In this document: in pieces, positions 3,041-35,153 of the stretch | How positions within the stretch are numbered: the stretch's first letter is position 1 | Layout of the letters: each line of letters starts with the position of its first letter | Virus record (IMG/VR): IMGVR_UViG_3300005466_000047 | Coordinates: 1 to 41,969 of that record | DNA: 41,969 bases | Source of the DNA: a virus | Strand: one strand, 5' to 3' | Program-made: the position numbers and the translations under genes | Notes under the pieces: model-generated | Databases searched by the model: none | Seen by the model: only the letters and a program-made list of their open reading frames with translations | Told to the model about the DNA's origin: nothing

Positions 3041-3727
3041 TTAATTGCATAGAAAGGATTCCACAGAAACATTTCCATATTGTTTGTTAATCTGAATCAA
3101 ATTTACTTTATTGTAAAACTCTTGTTCAGTGAAATTCATTTTCATAGTATTGCATTGCTTACAACATGATACACAGTTGTATGGTTCATAACCAACACTG
3201 TTATCTAATCTGTCAACACCATTTAAAGAACCTTGATAATTCTTTAATTCATCTTCTGTAAAGTTTCTATATCTAATCGCAGAAGTGATTGATGGAGAAG
3301 GTATGACGCTCCTTTCATCGATTTCTCCACAATAATAGCATGATTGTTTAACTATAGATAACCATGTGTCTTTAGATAAGGGAGTATAATTACGACTAAT
3401 TGCGTTGAATCTATGAGAATTATATTGTTTATTTTCAAGACTTCTAGGAGTTCTCAATTTGTAATTGGGTTTCCCTTTCAATATAACAGATAACTGATTT
3501 ATACAACCACAGTTTTTCCCTCCCTTTTTAGATACTAAGTTTTTACCTTTAACTTCAATAGTATTACCACACTCACATCTACACAACCAAGTACCTCGTT
3601 TGTTAACATCGCCTTTAGATACTTCTATGCACTTTTCAACAGTTAACATACCAAACCTCCTGCCTACAAAATCTATAGTAGGACACCCTAATTTATTGCC
3701 ATTTATACTAAATCCTTTTTCCATCAT
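3041..3727 (-). CDS. HNH homing endonuclease with N-terminal zinc/AP2-like DNA-binding region
   Basis: The N-terminal part has the pattern GRRFGMLTVEKC, then WLCRCECGN, then VKGKNLVSKKGGKNCGC, as seen in the DNA-binding region of phage HNH homing enzymes. The HNH part has CYYC at about residue 131 of this model, GVDRLDNSVGYEPYNC, and CKQCNTMK, giving two Cys pairs around the catalytic Asp/Asn. I place the start at the double Met (3722-3727), because an upstream Met at 3760 would overlap the preceding gene's end. The gene fits between two fibre genes with only six bases to the next start, typical of a free-standing homing gene. Its Lys/Asn-rich composition contrasts with the Ser/Thr-rich neighbours and suggests transfer. 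Confidence 0.85.
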   Translation of the reverse strand: MMEKGFSINGNKLGCPTIDFVGRRFGMLTVEKCIEVSKGDVNKRGTWLCRCECGNTIEVKGKNLVSKKGGKNCGCINQLSVILKGKPNYKLRTPRSLENKQYNSHRFNAISRNYTPLSKDTWLSIVKQSCYYCGEIDERSVIPSPSITSAIRYRNFTEDELKNYQGSLNGVDRLDNSVGYEPYNCVSCCKQCNTMKMNFTEQEFYNKVNLIQINKQYGNVSVESFLCN

Positions 3728-3734
3728 ATTAAAA

Positions 3735-4214
3735 TTATGGATAATGTACAATAATAGCACCTAATATAGGTGTAGTACTTGAAGCAGAGCTAGGGCAATT
3801 CTGAGCTAGCTGACAGAAGGCTGAACCTAAATCTGTATCAAGTCCAATAGCAGATAATATAGTTTCAACATTACCCTTCAAGTTCAGACACATTTTGTTA
3901 ATGATAGTAGTCAGTGTATCACCATCAATAATACCAAAACAGTTAATTGGAAATCCCTCAGATTTCCTGTAGGTAACACAATTGGTAGATATACTGTCCT
4001 CACAAGGTGTACATGGAATAGCTGATACCTGATTGCCCTGTGTACCTGTGCAATAACCATTAGGCCACACAGGATTAGCTGGCTGGAAGTTACTGGTACC
4101 TTCAGGACAGCAACCACAGTTAGGTTGTACAGATGCTACTGTAAACTCCGGTGGACAATTACAGGGAGCACTATCATTACAGCTATTACAAGGTTGTTGA
4201 GTACAGTTACACAT
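3735..4214 (-). CDS. Cys-rich fibre-associated protein (anchor-like)
   Basis: This 159-residue protein has a very Cys-rich first half (MCNCTQQPCNSC, CNC, CGCC, CTPC), followed by a short helical stretch TLTTIINKMCLNLKGNVETI that could trimerise as a coiled coil, and a short hydrophobic tail. The protein at 6082-6597 has the same plan: scattered Cys pairs, a central segment ending in a helix, and location between fibre genes. I infer a small fibre anchor or adaptor stabilised by metal or disulphides. I do not recognise a named family. It precedes the inserted HNH gene at 3041-3727. Confidence 0.6.
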   Translation of the reverse strand: MCNCTQQPCNSCNDSAPCNCPPEFTVASVQPNCGCCPEGTSNFQPANPVWPNGYCTGTQGNQVSAIPCTPCEDSISTNCVTYRKSEGFPINCFGIIDGDTLTTIINKMCLNLKGNVETILSAIGLDTDLGSAFCQLAQNCPSSASSTTPILGAIIVHYP

Positions 4215-4220
4215 AATTAA

Positions 4221-4901
4221 TTAATTGGTATAGAATCCACGCATATATACATCAAAAACATAACTAACAACTCCCACAGATGCAGAAGATACATTAACTT
4301 TTATATTTGTAGAAGGTGATACCATTAGATATATTGGACTAAAATTACCATTATACGGATGGTTAATAGTAGGAGTTAGCGAGCCACCTAACATTGTTGG
4401 GGTAACTATATCGTTATATGAAGGTAGATTGACTCCCATACTAACAATTGGAGCAGATGTTAGAGTACCAGCACCTATAGAAGTTATAACCAGCTTTATA
4501 TCAGTTACAATGAAGTTACCTGTAGTAGCAGGCGTAATACAAATAGAATATGTACCCGTAACAGTAGCATCTATAGCAGTTACTTTATTCAATGTACTAC
4601 CTATATCTGAGGTAAGTGCAATGTCTCCATCCTTATCCTGTAGATATTGATTTCTACCAGCAGTCATTGTACGAGCATTCAAATTCATTTGCCCTGCAGG
4701 TTGTGCGAACTGGTAGAAGTTATCATCAGTAACTCCAGTTAAATCAGTTTGCATTCTAAGACCTCTAGGGCCACCAGTACCAGTATATACACCTGGACCA
4801 ATTGCTCCAGGAGATACATAGGCCAATACCTGACCTGTAATTGCATCTTGTGAAATAAGAGATGTGTTCAGTAATGTAATGTCTGAATCTGTCTTTATCA
4901 T
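4221..4901 (-). CDS. Phage fibre/tail appendage protein
   Basis: The 226-residue protein shows the common phage-fibre connector signature YLQDKDGDIALTSDIG at about residue 86, just before a C-terminal beta-rich domain of about 125 residues (from VTAIDATVTGTYSICITP to the end). The N-terminal third is Gly/Thr-rich and probably fibrous. Proteins with this signature usually sit at the end of tail or head fibres, with the C-terminal domain serving as the receptor-binding or tip domain. It lies in a colinear series of fibre genes (1550-10546) spaced by a few bases. The receptor cannot be inferred. Confidence 0.7.
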   Translation of the reverse strand: MIKTDSDITLLNTSLISQDAITGQVLAYVSPGAIGPGVYTGTGGPRGLRMQTDLTGVTDDNFYQFAQPAGQMNLNARTMTAGRNQYLQDKDGDIALTSDIGSTLNKVTAIDATVTGTYSICITPATTGNFIVTDIKLVITSIGAGTLTSAPIVSMGVNLPSYNDIVTPTMLGGSLTPTINHPYNGNFSPIYLMVSPSTNIKVNVSSASVGVVSYVFDVYMRGFYTN

Positions 4902-16374: not shown

Positions 16375-18018
16375 TTAACTTCCGAATGGCTGTCCTGTAA
16401 CTACGTTAATTGGGACGATCTTGAGGATGCGTGTAGGATCCATCACTTGTACCCCTTTGTGATACTGGGTCATCTTTACATTGTACCCATTGAAGTCACC
16501 AACACTCAGGAAGCCTTTCTGGTCACCATTGTAATTAGCTGTACCATTCTGGTAGAACCATTTCAGACCCTTATCATAGTACCACTCCATCAGGTATATG
16601 TTATCATTACCACCATTAGCAGTTACGTCCCATATAATATAGCAATAGCTAGATGTACGATAACCATTAATGAATGGATTCTCTATATCATTTGCCAGAA
16701 CTGGGTCTAATGCTGGATTGATTACAAACTTTACATTTGCCAGGAATGGGATAACATATGCTGTATATGCGAAACCAAATCTCAAATCCATACCATTAAC
16801 CTGTGGAATGCTTGTTTTGCCAGATGCAGAACTGATTGCACCTACTTCAGATGCATTAATTACCATACCTGAATTGGTAGCCAATTGTGCAATTGCATCA
16901 TTAACTTGCTGCATACCAGCTATACCTGTTTGAACTATAACCTCATGCTTAGGATCTGGGCCAGTAAAGTCTACACGTCCATTATAGTAGTTATACAGTT
17001 CTGATTTCAATATACCCATATTCCAGGTACCAATATTGTATACACGTTTGAATGAGTTATCTAGCTGCCTCCATAGACCTACTGGTGTACGTATACCATC
17101 AGGACCATCTTGTTCAGAGTAGCCACCAAGTCCCCACATCATGTATTCTTCAATGTCCTTAATCACATCAGATAGACAGCGTTGTTCTGTTTCCAGTACA
17201 AATGAGTAGCTGATGATACCTTCTTCCATTGCCTTTAACAGACCTATCTGTGCAATCTTCGCAGCCTGGTCAGGTATATTAATGCGTGATGGATCATTAG
17301 GGTCCCACTCATTGAACTTAATCATTTCACGAATTGGAACTCCGCCCTTAGCACTCATCATGTCATGAGCACGGGAACTGATTGAATATGTTTTATCAGC
17401 TTCTGCAGTTCCAAGGAAATTATAGAATGTCCTATAACCTATGCGTGAGCTGCTATCATCCCATGATTCACCATATTCTCCCCTCATTGAGGTTTTACGG
17501 AATATTGGAGTTTGTGGTGTCAGGTACTTATTGTCCAAATATGTACTTGATGTACCATTATGGAGAGTACAAGTATAGATAACTTCACCATTGCCGGTAT
17601 CTTCAACTTCGAGCACCCTCATTTCATGCCCACTCATTTTATCATATGACAGTACTGCTGTTTTACCATATGCCCTACGATTGAGTGCAATCCTGAATGG
17701 TAGCTTATTCTGCCCCTTACGAGTATTTGTTGGGTCTATATCCCTGGTTATGTGAGGAACATCATTAACTACAGGTACATCCCATGTGTACTTACCATCA
17801 ACATCATCTACTACTTTCCTGTTCTTTCCGCCAAATGATGCAAAGTTATACAGGAATGGTTGAGCCTGTTGTGTCTGTGCCCAATATTCAATTATACCCA
17901 GTGAAGTGGGTTTCTTAGTCATCATCTGACTACGTAGATGGTAGCTATCCAGGTGTGAACCAAGGTCTACTCTGGTATCCCTGAGCAGATACCCATTGCT
18001 AAATACTGGTGTTGACAT
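16375..18018 (-). CDS. Major capsid protein
   Basis: Position identifies this 547-residue protein: it follows portal and scaffold and is the right size for an HK97-fold capsid subunit. The N-terminal part has a long polar arm (residues 1-60), then mixed beta regions (TYSISSRAHDMMSAKGGVPI at about 210), and a helix with EEGIISYSFVLETEQRCLSD. The C-terminal part, about 335-464, includes DFTGPDPKHEVIVQTG, NSGMVINASEVGA and YVIPFLANVKFVINP. It is repeated as a separate gene at 34620-35153. No catalytic motif or membrane segment is present. A strong hairpin follows the gene. The fold itself is inferred. Confidence 0.85.
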   Translation of the reverse strand: MSTPVFSNGYLLRDTRVDLGSHLDSYHLRSQMMTKKPTSLGIIEYWAQTQQAQPFLYNFASFGGKNRKVVDDVDGKYTWDVPVVNDVPHITRDIDPTNTRKGQNKLPFRIALNRRAYGKTAVLSYDKMSGHEMRVLEVEDTGNGEVIYTCTLHNGTSSTYLDNKYLTPQTPIFRKTSMRGEYGESWDDSSSRIGYRTFYNFLGTAEADKTYSISSRAHDMMSAKGGVPIREMIKFNEWDPNDPSRINIPDQAAKIAQIGLLKAMEEGIISYSFVLETEQRCLSDVIKDIEEYMMWGLGGYSEQDGPDGIRTPVGLWRQLDNSFKRVYNIGTWNMGILKSELYNYYNGRVDFTGPDPKHEVIVQTGIAGMQQVNDAIAQLATNSGMVINASEVGAISSASGKTSIPQVNGMDLRFGFAYTAYVIPFLANVKFVINPALDPVLANDIENPFINGYRTSSYCYIIWDVTANGGNDNIYLMEWYYDKGLKWFYQNGTANYNGDQKGFLSVGDFNGYNVKMTQYHKGVQVMDPTRILKIVPINVVTGQPFGS

Positions 18019-22225: not shown

Positions 22226-23020
22226 TTACAATTGGTTAGATAAATAGATAAAGGTTGTATCATTCTTGAACTTTCCCTTTAATTTATTCTTTAATGAGAC
22301 TACAGAGAACTTATAATCTTCAGAAGCTTTAGCTACTGATTGATATATTTTTCCAGTTTTTGTGTCAATTACTGCTTTACCTGTGAACGGTATGTGTGTA
22401 TAATTTTTAGCTTTCTCAGCTATTTTATCTTTTGTTTCTTGAGATACATAATGACCTTTTAATCTTTCACTTCTTTCTTTACATACTTTCTCAGAGAACT
22501 TTTTACCTTTTCTAGTCTTGGACATTTTCAACTTTGTCTCATCACTTACTTTCTTTCCATACATGTGATTCTTTACACCTTTTTGAGCATCACCTATTTT
22601 CTTTTTATGTTCTTCAGACAATGGTATACCCAAACCTTGGCCCATATTTTTCCTTCGTATTTTCTCTTTAGTTTCATCTGAAGGTTTCCATCCTTTAGTA
22701 GCATCTCCTCCATCTGTTAGATTAGAAAGTGTTCCTGTTCCTAAATCTATTCTTCCATACAACTTAATAAACTCTTGTTCTTTTTGTTTTGCATATTCAT
22801 AATTGTCTGTCTCAAACAGTATCTCAATATCATACTCTGTTTTACTTACAATATTATCCCATATCCTATTATTATAATGATAGACTATAGCTCTGTTATA
22901 CGGATATAGATTTTTATCTCTTCGTACCTTAGTTCCTACTCCAATGTAGAATACTTCATCCTTGTCTTTTCTTACATGTCTGTATAGATAGTGATTCCCA
23001 AGTGCTACAATGTTTTCCAT
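22226..23020 (-). CDS. GIY-YIG homing endonuclease with NUMOD3 and NUMOD1 modules
   Basis: The N-terminal nuclease has HYLYRHV and FYIGVGTKVRRDKN, the two strands of the GIY-YIG fold with Tyr pairs and an Arg. Glu occurs at about 82 in KQKEQEFIKLYG. Several NUMOD3-type DNA-binding repeats follow (KPSDETKEKIRRKN, PLSEEHKKKIGDAQKGVKN, KVSDETKLKMSKTRKGKKF). A NUMOD1-like helix-turn-helix closes the protein (AVIDTKTGKIYQSVAKASED). The gene stands between terminase and portal, a common homing site. It is Lys-rich and AT-rich compared with its neighbours. It starts 91 bases after the terminase stop and ends 11 bases before the portal start. Confidence 0.92.
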   Translation of the reverse strand: MENIVALGNHYLYRHVRKDKDEVFYIGVGTKVRRDKNLYPYNRAIVYHYNNRIWDNIVSKTEYDIEILFETDNYEYAKQKEQEFIKLYGRIDLGTGTLSNLTDGGDATKGWKPSDETKEKIRRKNMGQGLGIPLSEEHKKKIGDAQKGVKNHMYGKKVSDETKLKMSKTRKGKKFSEKVCKERSERLKGHYVSQETKDKIAEKAKNYTHIPFTGKAVIDTKTGKIYQSVAKASEDYKFSVVSLKNKLKGKFKNDTTFIYLSNQL

Positions 23021-25340: not shown

Positions 25341-26427
25341 TTATTTTATTTTCTCTCATCTCTACAAATTCCCCTGATGGTAATTGCATGCGGGTGTACT
25401 CTATATTGTTAGTCTGATAATATACCCATTTATACGTTTCCCTTATACCATCTTCTAACTTAGTATTTGGTTTCCATTTGAGTTCCCTGTGAATTAATTC
25501 ATTGTGGCTATTCCTTCCACGCACTCCAGTTGGTCCAGGTATGTTATTAATGCTTAGGTGTTTACCAGATATGCGTATAATCATTCTGGCGAGGTCATTA
25601 ATTGATATCATCTCATCACTTCCAATATTGATTATCTCCGTACAATCACTTCTCATTAACCTGATAATGCCTTCAATGCATTCATCTATATACAGAAATG
25701 AGCGTGTTTGTGAACCGTCTCCCCAGATATCTATTATTGTTCTGTGACTTAACTCTTCTTCAGATGTATATCCTAATGCTCTTTTCTCTATAGCTTCTGC
25801 TACCTTTCTACATATAGCTGCTGGTGCTTTTGCTTTATCTCCTTGCCATGTTCCATGTGGTCCGAATATATTGTGGAATCTGGCTATCCTTACCTGTAAT
25901 CCATAGTTCCTTTCAAATGCTTTGTATAACCTTTCGCTGAATAGTTTCTCCCATCCATATTCACTATCTGGTGCTGCAGGGTATGCGGATGACTCTTCAC
26001 AGTTTGGATTCTCTGGGTCTTCCTGATTGTATGCAGGGTATATACATGCACTGCTACTATAGAACAGTTTGGCTACTTTATTCTCTACTGCTGCCTTAGC
26101 TACATTCAGATTGATTAGCGCGCTATTGTGCATTACATCTGCATCATGCTCACCTGTGAATATGTAACCAGCTCCACCCATATCTGCAGCTAACTGATAT
26201 ACCTCATGCCAATATCTACCTAGTGGTATTGCATATGGTGTCATTATGTCATTTACAAATGCAGGGTCACGCAAATCTCCTTTAACGAAATAACTGCAGA
26301 ATTCCTTTGGTTTGAAATACTCATTGTCCTTTATATCAACACCAACTACATAATGACCTTCACTCTTTAACTTTTTGCAGAGGTGACTACCTATAAATCC
26401 TGCTGCTCCTAATATTAGACAATTCAT
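25330..26427 (-). CDS. NAD-dependent GDP-mannose 3,5-epimerase-like enzyme
   Basis: A 365-residue extended short-chain dehydrogenase. The NAD site is GAAGFIGSHL (residues 7-16). The active-site region has SSSACIYP (Cys128), Tyr157-Gly-Trp-Glu-Lys161, and KAKAPAAICRK (Lys198/200). This set (Cys, YxxxK, Lys) is characteristic of GDP-mannose 3,5-epimerase (GME), and GDGSQTRSFLYIDECIEG and GPTGVRGRNSH also match that family. The reaction converts GDP-D-mannose to GDP-L-galactose or GDP-L-gulose. Its start overlaps the HNH gene by four bases, and its stop overlaps the terminase start. It is the only nucleotide-sugar enzyme in this island. Substrate assignment is from motif recognition. Confidence 0.88.
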   Translation of the reverse strand: MNCLILGAAGFIGSHLCKKLKSEGHYVVGVDIKDNEYFKPKEFCSYFVKGDLRDPAFVNDIMTPYAIPLGRYWHEVYQLAADMGGAGYIFTGEHDADVMHNSALINLNVAKAAVENKVAKLFYSSSACIYPAYNQEDPENPNCEESSAYPAAPDSEYGWEKLFSERLYKAFERNYGLQVRIARFHNIFGPHGTWQGDKAKAPAAICRKVAEAIEKRALGYTSEEELSHRTIIDIWGDGSQTRSFLYIDECIEGIIRLMRSDCTEIINIGSDEMISINDLARMIIRISGKHLSINNIPGPTGVRGRNSHNELIHRELKWKPNTKLEDGIRETYKWVYYQTNNIEYTRMQLPSGEFVEMRENKINAV

Positions 26428-26978
26428 ATATGTATTTGTTTTTGTTTACTATTTATCTCTGGATATAATTTTGTAGCCCATCCGTATGTATCCTTATCAT
26501 ATGTTTTATGACACTTAGCACATAACTCAATAAAATCATCTAACTCTCTTTTATACTCATGACTTTTATTTGCCCATTGTACATTTTCTTCAGATCCACA
26601 ATGTTGACACATAGAAGCCTTTCCTTTGTGATTACTAACCCATCTATGTAATGCATGATATCCAACATCGTCACCTTTCCAAGTAGTTGGAGTCATTCCT
26701 TTTTGGAAAGATCCTGAATTAGGTATACATAATCCTTTTGTACCTTTATTCCATGGGTCTTTTCCTTTTCTAAACCCTCCATCTTCATTATAACTAAAAC
26801 CTTTTTCAAACCATCCACTATTAATTTTTACTATATTATAAGTACCCTTTCCTCTTTTTGGCATAGTTCTATACGCATACATACACTTTTTACTACAGTA
26901 CAATCCTCTCCCTATAGCAACTCTATCTGAACTAGTTATAAATTCGTTACCACAATTACAAGTTTTCTGTATATTCAT
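26424..26978 (-). CDS. HNH homing endonuclease with N-terminal zinc finger
   Basis: A 184-residue protein. The N-terminal Cys pattern CNCGNEF...YCSKKC is a zinc finger. Aromatic/Gly repeats (GWFEKGFSYNEDGGFRKGKD, GSFQKGMTPTTW) follow, and the HNH fold is ALHRWVSNHKG, CQHCG, then NKSHEYKRELDDFIELCAKC, with two Cys pairs and the catalytic His. It fits between a methyltransferase and the epimerase, overlapping the epimerase start by four bases. Composition is AT-rich and Lys-rich, unlike its neighbours. No duplicated gene end is visible at this insertion. Confidence 0.88.
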   Translation of the reverse strand: MNIQKTCNCGNEFITSSDRVAIGRGLYCSKKCMYAYRTMPKRGKGTYNIVKINSGWFEKGFSYNEDGGFRKGKDPWNKGTKGLCIPNSGSFQKGMTPTTWKGDDVGYHALHRWVSNHKGKASMCQHCGSEENVQWANKSHEYKRELDDFIELCAKCHKTYDKDTYGWATKLYPEINSKQKQIHI

Positions 26979-31063: not shown

Positions 31064-31727
31064 TCGTTATTATTTTGATGTGCATGTAGTTTGGTTCATA
31101 GTGTATATCGTCTACATGATACAGTGTATCTATTGTCGATAACCCTTCTGTGAAATCTCTCGGTGATGTACAGAGTTTTAGATTGTTCTGATAGTCTAAT
31201 GTATTGTAGAATCCTGTACCTGGTCTGATATCTGGTTTTGGATGAGCAAAGCATTCAAACTTACCCATTTTCACCTGTGGTTGTATACCCTTTTGAATGA
31301 ATGATTGATATAACCCATCATCCTCTCCACCATACCCTTTATATTGATTACTGAATCCATTCACAGCTACATAATGTGTTTTGCTGACTACTACAACTCC
31401 ACCAAAGAACTGCGAATATAATAGCTGATAATTGAACTGTGATGCTCTGCCAGCTATCATACATGGTAAATCACAGTAACTATAATCAACCTCTCCAAGT
31501 ACAGGTATAAAATCTACATCATGCAGTATTACATAATCATATGCAGATGATAACAGCTTGTAACCGATGTTATATAGCAATCCCTTATTCCATGCATTTG
31601 TATCTGCCTGTTCAATTACAGCTATAGTTAATTCAGACCAATGTTTCCTCAGATGTGTTGTTATTACTTCCAGGTGAGTGGCCCTACCTCTATACGTTAT
31701 CAATACTAACCCTGAAGCGCCAACCAT
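31056..31727 (-). CDS. Beta-4-galactosyltransferase-like (GT7) glycosyltransferase
   Basis: The 223-residue protein has the signature of the GT7 family: a NAWNKGLLYNIGY segment at about 44, VILHDVDFIPV (Asp-Val-Asp at 70-72), FFGGVVVVSKTHY, and NGFSNQYKGYGGEDDGLYQ (about 123-141), comparable to the WGWGGEDDD motif of beta-1,4-galactosyltransferases. It is short, with no membrane anchor, so it should be soluble in the host cytoplasm. Its partner genes overlap it at both ends (8 bases with the GT2, 22 bases with the next). Family assignment is strong, but donor choice in phages is open. Confidence 0.82.
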   Translation of the reverse strand: MVGASGLVLITYRGRATHLEVITTHLRKHWSELTIAVIEQADTNAWNKGLLYNIGYKLLSSAYDYVILHDVDFIPVLGEVDYSYCDLPCMIAGRASQFNYQLLYSQFFGGVVVVSKTHYVAVNGFSNQYKGYGGEDDGLYQSFIQKGIQPQVKMGKFECFAHPKPDIRPGTGFYNTLDYQNNLKLCTSPRDFTEGLSTIDTLYHVDDIHYEPNYMHIKIITNG

Positions 31728-32368
31728 GCCAGATAGTGTTGTTTATATGTACTGTATGTAGCATCTGCATTATCCAGAAAGTATTGTTCCTCTGTGGTCA
31801 TATCTGTCCAGTCTGTATTCCATGGAGTATGTGTGCATGTAAATCCATTTGCTACACGTACAGCATCATACTGGAATGGCAAATCAGTCCTTACAACACA
31901 GAATGATGTATCAATTGGAGCACTATATACATCAGGAGCTATCTCAGTTAGCCAGTAGTTGGCCTCAATTGGTTGTATAATATCTGCTAGAAATGCATTG
32001 GATATATCCAGATAGTCAATAGCGAGTCCTACTTTATCAACTCCATACCAACCTGCCATCCTGGTCATACGCTCTATAAACCCTGGAGCAGCATCTACAT
32101 TTAATGAGATGTCACTATCGGATATAGCTACCCAGGGAGAGTCAGAGAATATACTAATTATATTATCATCCCAGAATGTCATACTACCTGTATTTGTATG
32201 GTTCAGTACAGTTATGTCAGTTAGTGTTTCATACCAATCCAGTAATGGCGGGTATGTACTTCCCAAATCCAGTATGAATATATTATCATACCCAAGTCCT
32301 TGCAGTTGAGTACACAGGTTCTGTGTGGTTGTCAACCTGTTGTTGTTGAATAGTATTATCGGTATCAT
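31706..32368 (-). CDS. GT-A-fold glycosyltransferase
   Basis: A 220-residue protein with IIPI-type first strand (IPIILFNNNRLTTTQNL), then a nucleotide-binding strand NIFILDLGSTYPPLLDWY and the Asp-Ser-Asp motif VAISDSDISLN at about residue 81. The C-terminal region is acidic and aromatic (DWTDMTTEEQYF). It is a GT-A enzyme, but the family number is uncertain. It follows the displaced 3' tail at 32384-32467, and its start is 15 bases after that fragment. It overlaps the GT7 gene by 22 bases. Specificity is unknown. Confidence 0.75.
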   Translation of the reverse strand: MIPIILFNNNRLTTTQNLCTQLQGLGYDNIFILDLGSTYPPLLDWYETLTDITVLNHTNTGSMTFWDDNIISIFSDSPWVAISDSDISLNVDAAPGFIERMTRMAGWYGVDKVGLAIDYLDISNAFLADIIQPIEANYWLTEIAPDVYSAPIDTSFCVVRTDLPFQYDAVRVANGFTCTHTPWNTDWTDMTTEEQYFLDNADATYSTYKQHYLAWLALQG

Positions 32369-32383
32369 GATGTGTGGTTTTAA

Positions 32384-32467
32384 TTAATTATGGATAGTTA
32401 ATGGAAGATTTATTTTATGTGCCTTTTTGATTAACCCTCTCTTGATTATCTCCTGTATTGTATACCA
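32384..32467 (-). pseudogene. Displaced 3' tail of the GT2 gene at 33235-33804
   Basis: A 27-codon open fragment without a start codon (WYTIQEIIKRGLIKKAHKIN, then LPLTIHN and a stop) lies just after the stop of the GIY-YIG gene. It matches 18 of 26 residues of the GT2 gene's own C-terminus (YTIQEIIRKGLIKKSYKVDK, then ILTIHN). The DNA of the two copies is only about 70% alike, so this is not a recent exact repeat. It looks like the original 3' end of the gene, cut off by the homing gene insertion. Confidence 0.85.
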
Positions 32468-32468
32468 G

Positions 32469-33233
32469 TTATTTATTATTCTTATTGGATAGTGTATTTG
32501 CTATTTTATCTCTTGTCTCTTGTGACATTGGAATTCTTATTTCACAATTATCGAAATGCCATCGTTGCATAATACCAATACCTCCTTCTTTTCCACACTT
32601 TGGGCATATGATTTTTATACGCTCAACTCCTTTAGTTGTAATAACTTTATTCTTCTTCATTTTTTCTATCTGCTCTATAGTCATTTTCCTTCCTGTATTC
32701 TTTTCTTTTAGTAACTGTTTTGTTGCATCTGATACTATTCTACCTCTTAGTGCTATTCCTATTTTTAGCTTTGCTTCTTCTGACATCACTTTACCTTTAT
32801 TACCATCTCCTATTTTTCTACGAGTTTCTTCTGTTACAGTTTTTCCAATATTGACAGATTTTAACTTCTCAGCATGATCTTTAGATAACTTTCTACCTTT
32901 TCCTGCATTGCTTATTTTCTTTTTAGTTTCATCTGAGTGTTTTCCACCTCTCCCGCCTTCTTTTATGTTCATCATTTTAAATCCACAATCTTTATACTGT
33001 TGAATAAATAGTACCTCTAATTGGTCCAGAACTTCTTGTGTTATATCTTCTGGTAACTCCTGGAGTATCTCAAACTTATGATTATCCCATCCATATCTTT
33101 TTATAGATTCTATAACTTTTGGTTGATGATAACATTGACTTCTTTTATAGTTTCCAATTCTCTTCTCTATATTCCAAGTCTGCCCGATATTTACTCTTCC
33201 TGATGGAGATGTTATTCTATATATTCCTACCAT
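32469..33233 (-). CDS. GIY-YIG homing endonuclease with NUMOD3 repeats and zinc finger
   Basis: A 254-residue enzyme. The nuclease part opens VGIYRITSPSGRVNIGQTWN, where the second strand is NIG in place of YIG, with Arg at about 25. A Glu is at LDQLEVLFIQQY. Five NUMOD3-like repeats follow (KHSDETKKKISNAGKGRK, KTVTEETRRKIGDGNKGK and others). A zinc finger of the type CPKCGKEGGIGIMQRWHFDNC ends the protein. Composition is strongly Lys/Ile-rich. It sits at the 3' end of a GT2 gene. A divergent copy of that gene's end lies on its far side, so it was inserted there with a replacement tail. Confidence 0.9.
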   Translation of the reverse strand: MVGIYRITSPSGRVNIGQTWNIEKRIGNYKRSQCYHQPKVIESIKRYGWDNHKFEILQELPEDITQEVLDQLEVLFIQQYKDCGFKMMNIKEGGRGGKHSDETKKKISNAGKGRKLSKDHAEKLKSVNIGKTVTEETRRKIGDGNKGKVMSEEAKLKIGIALRGRIVSDATKQLLKEKNTGRKMTIEQIEKMKKNKVITTKGVERIKIICPKCGKEGGIGIMQRWHFDNCEIRIPMSQETRDKIANTLSNKNNK

Positions 33234-33234
33234 A

Positions 33235-33804
33235 TCAATTGTGGATAGTTAATATTTTATCTACCTTATATGACTTCTTTATTAAACCTTTCCTTATAAT
33301 TTCTTGAATTGTATAAAAGTCACTACAGAACTGCTCACCTGACACTATACCTGTCTGTTTGATATACTCAGTTTTGATAGTCCACTGTCCCCAATCCAGA
33401 TGACCAAATGCTATCTCGCCAGATATCACATTGTAATTGAACAAGTGTGATATAGCTTGCCAGTGTATCATATCTGCACCTGCGGTTATAGCATCCGCTA
33501 TTAACTGAACTGTGCAAGGTAGATAATAATCCTGGATACTGGTATTTACTACGTACTCTGTATCTACTAAATACTTGATAGCAGATGCTCTATTAGCTGT
33601 GCCCCAGTTACCTGTATCTATTGGAGAACGTTCATAGCTAATTCTTGGATCATCTACTGTATACATAGTATCTGTTATTGGACCATTATTATATATAATT
33701 GCCTTCCAATTTGGATTTGTCTGTGCTAACATACTATCTATAAACGGAGAGTTGTAGAACTCCTCATTATGAGCACAGGCAATAAAGGTAATGAATGGTT
33801 TCAT
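33235..33804 (-). CDS. GT2 family glycosyltransferase with a replaced 3' end
   Basis: The 189-residue GT-A enzyme begins ITFIACAHNEEFYNSPFIDS, has a nucleotide-binding strand WKAIIYNNGPIT and an acceptor-side helix, and ends FYTIQEIIRKGLIKKSYKVD followed by a short tail. The last 26 codons have a second divergent copy at 32384-32467. The core domain lacks a clear Asp-x-Asp, although NTSIQDYY occupies that place. It starts with ATG overlapping the stop of a small membrane gene (ATGA). The present C-terminus was probably supplied with the homing gene. Confidence 0.8.
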   Translation of the reverse strand: MKPFITFIACAHNEEFYNSPFIDSMLAQTNPNWKAIIYNNGPITDTMYTVDDPRISYERSPIDTGNWGTANRASAIKYLVDTEYVVNTSIQDYYLPCTVQLIADAITAGADMIHWQAISHLFNYNVISGEIAFGHLDWGQWTIKTEYIKQTGIVSGEQFCSDFYTIQEIIRKGLIKKSYKVDKILTIHN

Positions 33805-33908
33805 CTTTCACTACAGAATTTTATAAAGTCAATAATCCCATACACAATTATCCCTGCTATAATTACTCCTACTACTAATACTACAAATGCAAATGTACAC
33901 TCACTCAT
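33801..33908 (-). CDS. 35-residue single-pass membrane mini-protein
   Basis: An ATG at 33906-33908 begins a 35-codon frame with a long hydrophobic stretch (FAFVVLVVGVIIAGIIVYGI) between a short Cys-containing N-terminus (MSECT) and a charged C-terminus (DFIKFCSER). It overlaps the GT2 start by ATGA, so it is likely real and coupled. It might anchor or locate the glycosyltransferases at the membrane, or act by itself on the host membrane. Both are inferences. Confidence 0.65.
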   Translation of the reverse strand: MSECTFAFVVLVVGVIIAGIIVYGIIDFIKFCSER

Positions 33909-33910
33909 TG

Positions 33911-34090
33911 TTATTCTGTTATTATTTCAACAATTTTGTTCTTTCTCATATCATAGATGTCGTATATATCTATGAATCTGTTACCTATTGGTATTGTTCC
34001 ACCTACTTCATTTATTTCATACTCTTTATCTTTGAGTATTTCCAACTTGCCAGATACGTAGTAGTCCTGTATAAATTTAACTGTTATCAT
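33911..34090 (-). CDS. 59-residue protein of unknown function
   Basis: A frame of 59 codons starts at the ATG 34088-34090 (MITVKFIQDYYVSGKLEILK) and ends KNKIVEIITE. It is beta-rich and charged, with a repeated Ile-Asp-Ile-Tyr pattern at the centre (RFIDIYDIYDMRK). It overlaps the previous gene's stop (ATGA) and ends two bases before the membrane mini-gene start. Coupled overlaps support translation. Function is unknown. Confidence 0.65.
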   Translation of the reverse strand: MITVKFIQDYYVSGKLEILKDKEYEINEVGGTIPIGNRFIDIYDIYDMRKNKIVEIITE

Positions 34091-34617
34091 CCGTTATTCA
34101 TTTGGTCCATCTGATCATATGCAATCTTCTTAGCTCCACGAACTCTATGTTGTTCTGCTTTGAGTTTTATCTCCAACTTGTCATACATCTCTAAGTAATC
34201 GGGGATTTGCTTCATGAACATATTGACATCACCTGCATTACCGTTCTTACCACCTGTAGTCTTGTTATCATCCAGGAAGTCATATATATCTGTCAACTTG
34301 TTTTTACATGTTCTAAACCCTCTAACTGTTGGTGTTTCATATAATAGTTTACATCTCTCTAGAGCATTTGTTATTATTGGATCATCCAGAGAGAAATCAA
34401 TAGCAAGGTCTTGAATTATCATTTCCTGTCTTTCTTCTTCTGGTCTGTTGATATATATATTACGACTGTCCCAACATGACATGTAGAACAGATAGCCATA
34501 TACTTTTAGGTAGTCATCTGGGTATATCTCTCTGATTTTCCTCAGCCAGTCTATAAATAGCGTACACTGTTCTGGAACTACAACACCATTTACAACTTCA
34601 AATAAACAGATTTGCAT
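34087..34617 (-). CDS. Conserved phage protein of unknown function
   Basis: The 176-residue helical protein begins MQICLFEVVNGVVVPEQCTL, carries YLFYMSCWDSRNIYINRPEE, ERCKLLYETPTVRGFRTCKN and a C-terminal helix with RVRGAKKIAYD. I recall proteins of this pattern (VPxxE at the start, an xYxxCDxxSPYxNYPExxR centre, ETPTxR, then RG at the end) in crAss-like phages near terminase genes. They have no assigned function. It follows the capsid-domain gene by two bases, so a head-related role is possible. Confidence 0.6.
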   Translation of the reverse strand: MQICLFEVVNGVVVPEQCTLFIDWLRKIREIYPDDYLKVYGYLFYMSCWDSRNIYINRPEEERQEMIIQDLAIDFSLDDPIITNALERCKLLYETPTVRGFRTCKNKLTDIYDFLDDNKTTGGKNGNAGDVNMFMKQIPDYLEMYDKLEIKLKAEQHRVRGAKKIAYDQMDQMNNG

Positions 34618-34619
34618 AA

Positions 34620-35153
34620 CTACTTTAGATTTTTCAAACAGTTCATTATATATTTTGTCATTACTCCAGCATCCATATTGTATTCTTTAGTTAGATTACA
34701 ATCATGTATCAACTGACTTAACTCATGTCTGAATACAGGTCTCTTTCCTATACATTCAATAGTTGCAATGAGTTCTTTATTAACTGATACATTATATGTG
34801 TATGAATTTTTCCAGAATCCATCAATCATGTAATTTTTATCTGTAACTTCTTCATTATCATATTTTGAATTTATTTCAAATTCTACATTTGCCAGGAATG
34901 GAATAATCCATGTAGTTACTAATCTACCATCTGGTTTTTCAATATTAGATGCATTAATAACTAACCCACTATTAATTGTCATTTCTTTTATTGCATTATT
35001 CATCTGACACATTCCACCTAATCCTGTTTCTACTACTACATTTATTGATGGATCTGGTCCTGTGAAATCTATTTTACCTGCATAATAGTCATAGAGTGTA
35101 CTTTGTAGTATATCTTTTACATTATCCCCTACTTTGTATTGTACTGTTGTCAT
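34620..35153 (-). CDS. Stand-alone paralogue of the major capsid C-terminal region
   Basis: A 177-residue protein. Residues 13-130 align with residues 335-464 of the major capsid protein: LYDYYAGKIDFTGPDPSINV against LYNYYNGRVDFTGPDPKHEV, NSGLVINASNIE against NSGMVINASEVG, and IIPFLANVEFEINS against VIPFLANVKFVINP. The capsid's N-terminal 330 residues are missing here. The last 50 residues (IATIECIGKRPVFRHELSQL to the end) have no counterpart. It may be a minor capsid or vertex protein, an assembly regulator, or a decoration protein that copies the capsid surface. The gene lies directly upstream of a conserved phage gene and next to a GT4. Confidence 0.8.
   Translation of the reverse strand: MTTVQYKVGDNVKDILQSTLYDYYAGKIDFTGPDPSINVVVETGLGGMCQMNNAIKEMTINSGLVINASNIEKPDGRLVTTWIIPFLANVEFEINSKYDNEEVTDKNYMIDGFWKNSYTYNVSVNKELIATIECIGKRPVFRHELSQLIHDCNLTKEYNMDAGVMTKYIMNCLKNLK

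Follow-up and report, generated by a model that had tools for sequence, protein, structure and literature searches.

How can a homing endonuclease gene (HEG) come to lie inside the end of a coding gene that is still whole? The question arises at a locus in a virus record of 41,969 bases, the whole of which (the window) was analysed here, whose terminase is distantly related (~25%) to the terminases of crAss-like and Flavobacterium phages. In a minus-strand cluster of glycosyltransferase and methyltransferase genes, a GT2-like glycosyltransferase gene (GT2) is followed by a HEG, and the end of GT2 is found again, in diverged form, behind that HEG. The layout and coordinates given for this locus in an earlier note were borne out, with every feature on the minus strand (Table 1).

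Table 1. Features of the GT2 locus and its surroundings (positions in the window).
Feature	Position	Strand	Details
GT2-like glycosyltransferase gene	33235..33804	-	189 aa, complete with substitute tail; ORF and translation
Substitute tail	33238..33318	-	last 27 codons of GT2 and C-terminus of its product, FYTIQEIIRKGLIKKSYKVDKILTIHN; then stop 33235-33237
HEG	32469..33233	-	254 aa; GIY-YIG, NUMOD3 and C-terminal zinc-ribbon-like motif
GIY-YIG catalytic domain	32988..33230	-	PF01541; second motif NIG for YIG
NUMOD3 DNA-binding motif	32811..32948	-	residues 96-141; PF07460, 43.9 bits against a cut-off of 20.4
C-terminal CPKCGKEGGIGIMQRWHFDNC motif	32544..32606	-	common to many phage HEGs
Right junction	32465..32471	-	HEG stop TAA 32469-32471, one base C, first displaced codon TGG 32465-32467
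Displaced tail	32387..32467	-	27 codons, WYTIQEIIKRGLIKKAHKINLPLTIHN; stop 32384-32386; presumed native GT2 end
Next cluster gene	31706..32368	-	ATG at 32368, 15 nt past the stop of the displaced tail

The duplication of the gene end is real and far above chance. When GT2 was searched against the whole 42-kb record, the displaced tail was the only second match (E = 3.7e-7), the tail pair reached a local score of 97 where shuffles reached at most 45, and a search for repeats, run unsupervised, independently listed the same pair as a direct repeat of 87 nt at 72% (family D5). The substitute and displaced tails are identical at 18 of 27 residues and 58 of 81 bases; the earlier note gave 18 of 26 residues and about 70% of bases. 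Of the 27 codon pairs, 8 are identical, 10 carry synonymous differences and 9 encode different residues. The similarity sets in at the very codon next to the HEG stop and runs up to the stop codon of each tail. Packing is equally tight on the other side, the HEG ATG standing 1 nt past the GT2 stop. The displaced copy lies in an open frame of 38 residues with no ATG, GTG or TTG upstream in it.

The product of the intervening gene matches the profiles PF01541 and PF07460, both above the Pfam curated cut-offs, and the homing endonuclease family PHROG 314 (E = 1.1e-28). Judging by these domains, the gene is by descent a free-standing homing endonuclease of the GIY-YIG class. A search of positions 31700-34100 for self-splicing RNA gave no Rfam match up to E = 1, hence the locus holds no known intron and the HEG is free-standing. 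Within the catalytic domain, the tyrosine of the YIG motif is replaced by asparagine (codon AAT); 11 of 12 aligned relatives carry tyrosine, and the twelfth (L020) is without a recognisable motif at this position. Since NIG replaces YIG, the activity of the enzyme is doubtful, and this one-codon change may mark an inactive or decaying enzyme.

GT2 itself has no match in Pfam or PHROG. Its only full-length relative found, in LR756511, is 25% identical over 92% of the GT2 length and ends in ...ADWSYINAIM...KVKKVLFVHN. Because this relative ends likewise, the GT2 tail is a genuine C-terminus of the protein family; GT2, with its substitute tail, is therefore complete, and the orphan copy behind the HEG is what was left over. 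The next cluster gene, for which neither Pfam nor PHROG gave a family match at E <= 0.001, follows that leftover at operon-like spacing. At the locus no terminator-like sites were found, and promoter-like sites occur at chance level only.

Which of the two tails is native can be approached from position and composition. The orphan is presumably the native end of GT2, because it adjoins the next gene with operon-like spacing and breaks off precisely at the HEG stop. GC content falls from 38% in the GT2 body to 21% in the substitute tail, and is 30% in the orphan and 32% in the HEG; the departure from the body is larger in the substitute tail than in the orphan, which leans weakly toward the orphan as the native end. 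Codon usage did not separate the two tails, and the tail motif, searched for as degenerate DNA, returned unrelated matches only. Relatives of the GT2 locus, with or without the HEG, were absent from the sets of viral contigs, genome contigs, phages and plasmids that were searched, and the contig of the closest relative (L026, TerL 46% identical) stops short of the locus. We therefore infer the native tail from its position and from sister cases elsewhere, described below.

The surroundings of the locus show further features. Beside the glycosyltransferase cluster, a 177-aa gene (34620-35153, minus strand) encodes a partial capsid-protein paralogue, its product matching the major head protein (16375-18018, minus strand) in the middle and C-terminal regions with 42% identity over 134 residues. 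By inspection, we also noted three further putative HEGs (22226-23020, 26424-26978 and 3041-3760, all on the minus strand), each tightly packed between genes, one of them between terminase and portal; among these, only 22226-23020 has a Pfam match (NUMOD3). No duplicated gene end was found at any of these three in the 41,969-base record.

The arrangement at GT2 recurs elsewhere. In loci of HEGs sharing the C-terminal CPKCGKEGGIGIMQRWHFDNC motif, we looked for sequence that recurs on either side of the HEG, and found the end of the invaded gene on both sides at six other phage loci, whose HEGs carry the same motifs as the one at GT2. Two involve the 3' end, as at GT2: in L078, a SLOG-family gene ends VIAFPGGKGTANMVNISKKAGIPI... 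and IVAFKGGNGTAHMIKIGREAGVPV... is found 13 nt behind the HEG, and in L112, the tail of a SegE-like gene (..LKPLWIK..) is repeated directly at the HEG stop with 25 identical bases. The other four (L008, L057/58, L110 and L089-91) involve the 5' end; the head copies of L057/58 are identical at 12 of 12 residues and 35 of 39 bases, and the gene invaded in L110 is rtcB. Relatives of the SLOG gene in L078 did not show which of its tails is native. A second HEG in L078 (4925-5638) has a 7-residue gene-end copy (NLDYIIK/NMDWIIK) right at its stop, which is too short to judge.

When position is taken into account, 6 of the 67 HEG ORFs have a gene-end copy beside them, as do 12 of the 1153 ORFs used as controls. 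The odds ratio is 9.4, and the p-value of 2.4e-4 is indicative only, because the GT2-locus HEG is among these 6 and the thresholds were set after this index case had been seen. Those control matches that were inspected were mostly repeats or gene families sharing heads, and those in L001, L012 and L043 were set aside as such by their appearance. The L012 match (3118-4462) is a head, RAYEFITEQ/RAHEFVSE, common to three consecutive genes, which could reflect related genes in tandem or a common leader and is unrelated to homing as far as seen. We also rejected the high score of L071/L072, which is due only to two NUMOD3 repeats matching each other.

The most informative of the sister cases is a pair of contigs from two different metagenomes, L089 and L090, in which the invaded gene end is the 5' end. 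The two are identical over exactly 1,016 nt, a tract comprising the HEG and the replacement head, with an upstream flank that is ~40-65% identical (82% in the last window before the tract) and a downstream flank that is mostly ~60-95% identical. On the left, the tract begins after codon 31 of the stranded head (..WVTF-R/KE, the slash marking the edge); on the right, it ends in codon 44 of the substitute head (..WVTFSKEG/V), so that both edges correspond to one position in the invaded gene. Within the tract is the substitute head, which the two contigs have in identical form; outside it are the stranded heads, MQERYHNYISRKLKEERTMTEASRSVWVTFR and MYEQENYHNYILRKIREERTMTEPTKSIWVTFR, which differ from each other. 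Here it is thus the cassette that carries the substitute end and the native end that is left behind. The comparison shows one cassette, a HEG with a substitute gene end, to be present in two diverged phages, each of which retains its own stranded native end. This sister element thereby shows the mechanism suggested in the earlier note in mirror image, at the 5' end. The case rests on the comparison of L089 with L090, because relatives of the gene in isolates have short or different heads, which did not settle the native one.

From these observations, we propose that the HEG very probably entered the end of GT2 together with a diverged copy of the last 27 codons, and that the native 27 codons are now a relic. 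In the predicted course of events, the endonuclease would cut inside the end of its target gene, and double-strand-break repair would copy in both the donor HEG and the donor version of the gene end. The resident GT2 body would be joined in frame to the 27 substitute codons, leaving GT2 whole, and its own last 27 codons would be pushed behind the HEG, where they persist without a start codon. Divergence of the substitute end would also remove the recognition site. The earlier note saw in the new tail a recoding that guards it against being cut again, but synonymous divergence, present at 10 of the 18 conserved codons, would be expected of any diverged donor gene. The earlier note had claimed a replacement tail delivered with the HEG and a stranded native tail, and the anatomy of the locus, the recurrence at six loci and the L089/L090 cassette speak for this; at GT2, we infer the identity of the native tail, the way the right side was joined and the loss of the cut site through divergence.

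Other histories could leave a similar trace. An accidental likeness between two unrelated stretches might be entertained because they are short (27 codons), but it is refuted by the E value over the record and the shuffle scores given above, with both ends of the similarity falling on gene boundaries, and its probability is negligible. A history with more to recommend it starts from two tandem GT2 paralogues, between which the HEG landed and of which the second was deleted save for its last 27 codons; several glycosyltransferase-like genes do stand side by side in the cluster, and the remnant has an ordinary stop codon ahead of the next gene. The deletion would, however, need its endpoint precisely at the HEG stop and at the codon with which the homology begins. 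Nothing else in the cluster is similar to GT2, and recurrence at either end of unrelated genes (L078, L112, L008, L057, L110 and L089-91) would go unexplained. We therefore disfavour tandem paralogues and consider them quite improbable.

A closer alternative is that the duplication was a one-sided accident, in which a donor HEG lying downstream of a GT2 homologue was copied, along with the 3' end of that homologue, into a break in the resident gene and its right side was joined illegitimately, making the tail a by-product and no part of any standing cassette. One-sided illegitimate repair, with junctions at microhomology, is among the events reported for T4 intron homing in the review drawn on here (PMC2988022), TTAACTATCCA is present at both tail ends, and the junction on the right is made directly at the HEG stop. 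Against this, the same cassette boundary occurs in the two diverged phages L089 and L090, which looks like a standing unit. We give such an accident a real chance, though one clearly below even; as it is a variant of entry with a diverged gene end, the two estimates overlap.

Entry of a HEG together with a diverged gene end, the reading we prefer, has close parallels in fungal mitochondria. In atp6, atp9, cox2 and nad3 of Glomus sp. and in atp6 of Allomyces macrogynus, a mobile endonuclease ORF is described as bringing a foreign C-terminus (Beaudet et al. 2013, PMC3630166). According to the parts of that paper considered here, the diverged native C-terminus lies behind the endonuclease (63.5% DNA identity in atp6), hybrid transcripts were shown, and the atp9 enzyme is of the GIY-YIG class, three of the four Glomus cases being LAGLIDADG. 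As far as these parts describe them, the fungal ORFs are like the GT2 locus in having an endonuclease gene that follows the 3' end of its host gene, an in-frame substitute C-terminus upstream and a diverged copy directly downstream. Unlike them, the GT2 locus lies in a phage, has a GIY-YIG enzyme with NUMOD3 and a zinc-ribbon-like motif, and is known here from sequence alone. The 5'-end mirror image was seen only in the related phage loci and is not described for the fungal ORFs in those parts of PMC3630166. The arrangement is a phage form of the fungal principle, seen here at both gene ends; in the openly searchable literature, a scope that leaves most subscription journals outside, we found no phage report of substitute gene ends.

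Among phage elements, the HEG resembles segA-G of T4 and SegD of KVP40-like phages in being a free-standing gene with GIY-YIG and NUMOD3 that belongs to PHROG 314. For HEGs of the T4 Seg kind, the T4 review, as far as it is used here, reports cleavage sites hundreds to thousands of bases away and long co-conversion, and its section on the effects of HEGs on gene structure treats gene-splitting insertions only (PMC2988022). Like mobE in nrdA of Aeh1 and mobA in gene 60 of T4, two examples from the same source, the HEG at GT2 lies inside a coding gene whose function survives (for GT2, a prediction). In those two cases, however, both halves are kept as separate polypeptides (PMC2988022), whereas GT2 is full length and the displaced part, lacking a start codon, is redundant. 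A further likeness, by analogy only, is to engineered systems. In cleave-and-rescue or recoded-rescue gene drives, a nuclease is linked to an altered copy of its target that restores target function.

How general such entries are can be judged in part from loci at which no second end is seen. Unlike at GT2, none of the 12 HEG loci of isolated phages tested has a duplicated gene end, so the visible layout is a minority. In L057, L058, L094-L096, L100-L103, L107-L109 and L111, GIY-YIG HEGs lie directly 5' of one and the same gene (MTTSG..FN..), and a stranded head was found only in L057/58, which suggests that the native end decays with time as part of a HEG life cycle. We tentatively extend this to many free-standing phage HEGs that now look intergenic, which may have entered coding genes in the form of cassettes that bring a new 5' or 3' end, the native end having since decayed; this generalization, which fits the L057 family because only L057/58 keep the stranded head, we place a little short of an even chance.

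For phage biology, the arrangement shows a way in which a HEG that has neither a self-splicing intron nor an intein can enter coding sequence and leave the gene intact. If this is true, the cut site of these enzymes is predicted to lie inside the replaced end, which could explain the resistance of their own genome to cutting, and the habit of HEGs of sitting tight against start or stop codons would be explained as well. The ends of phage genes would then become marks of past homing events.
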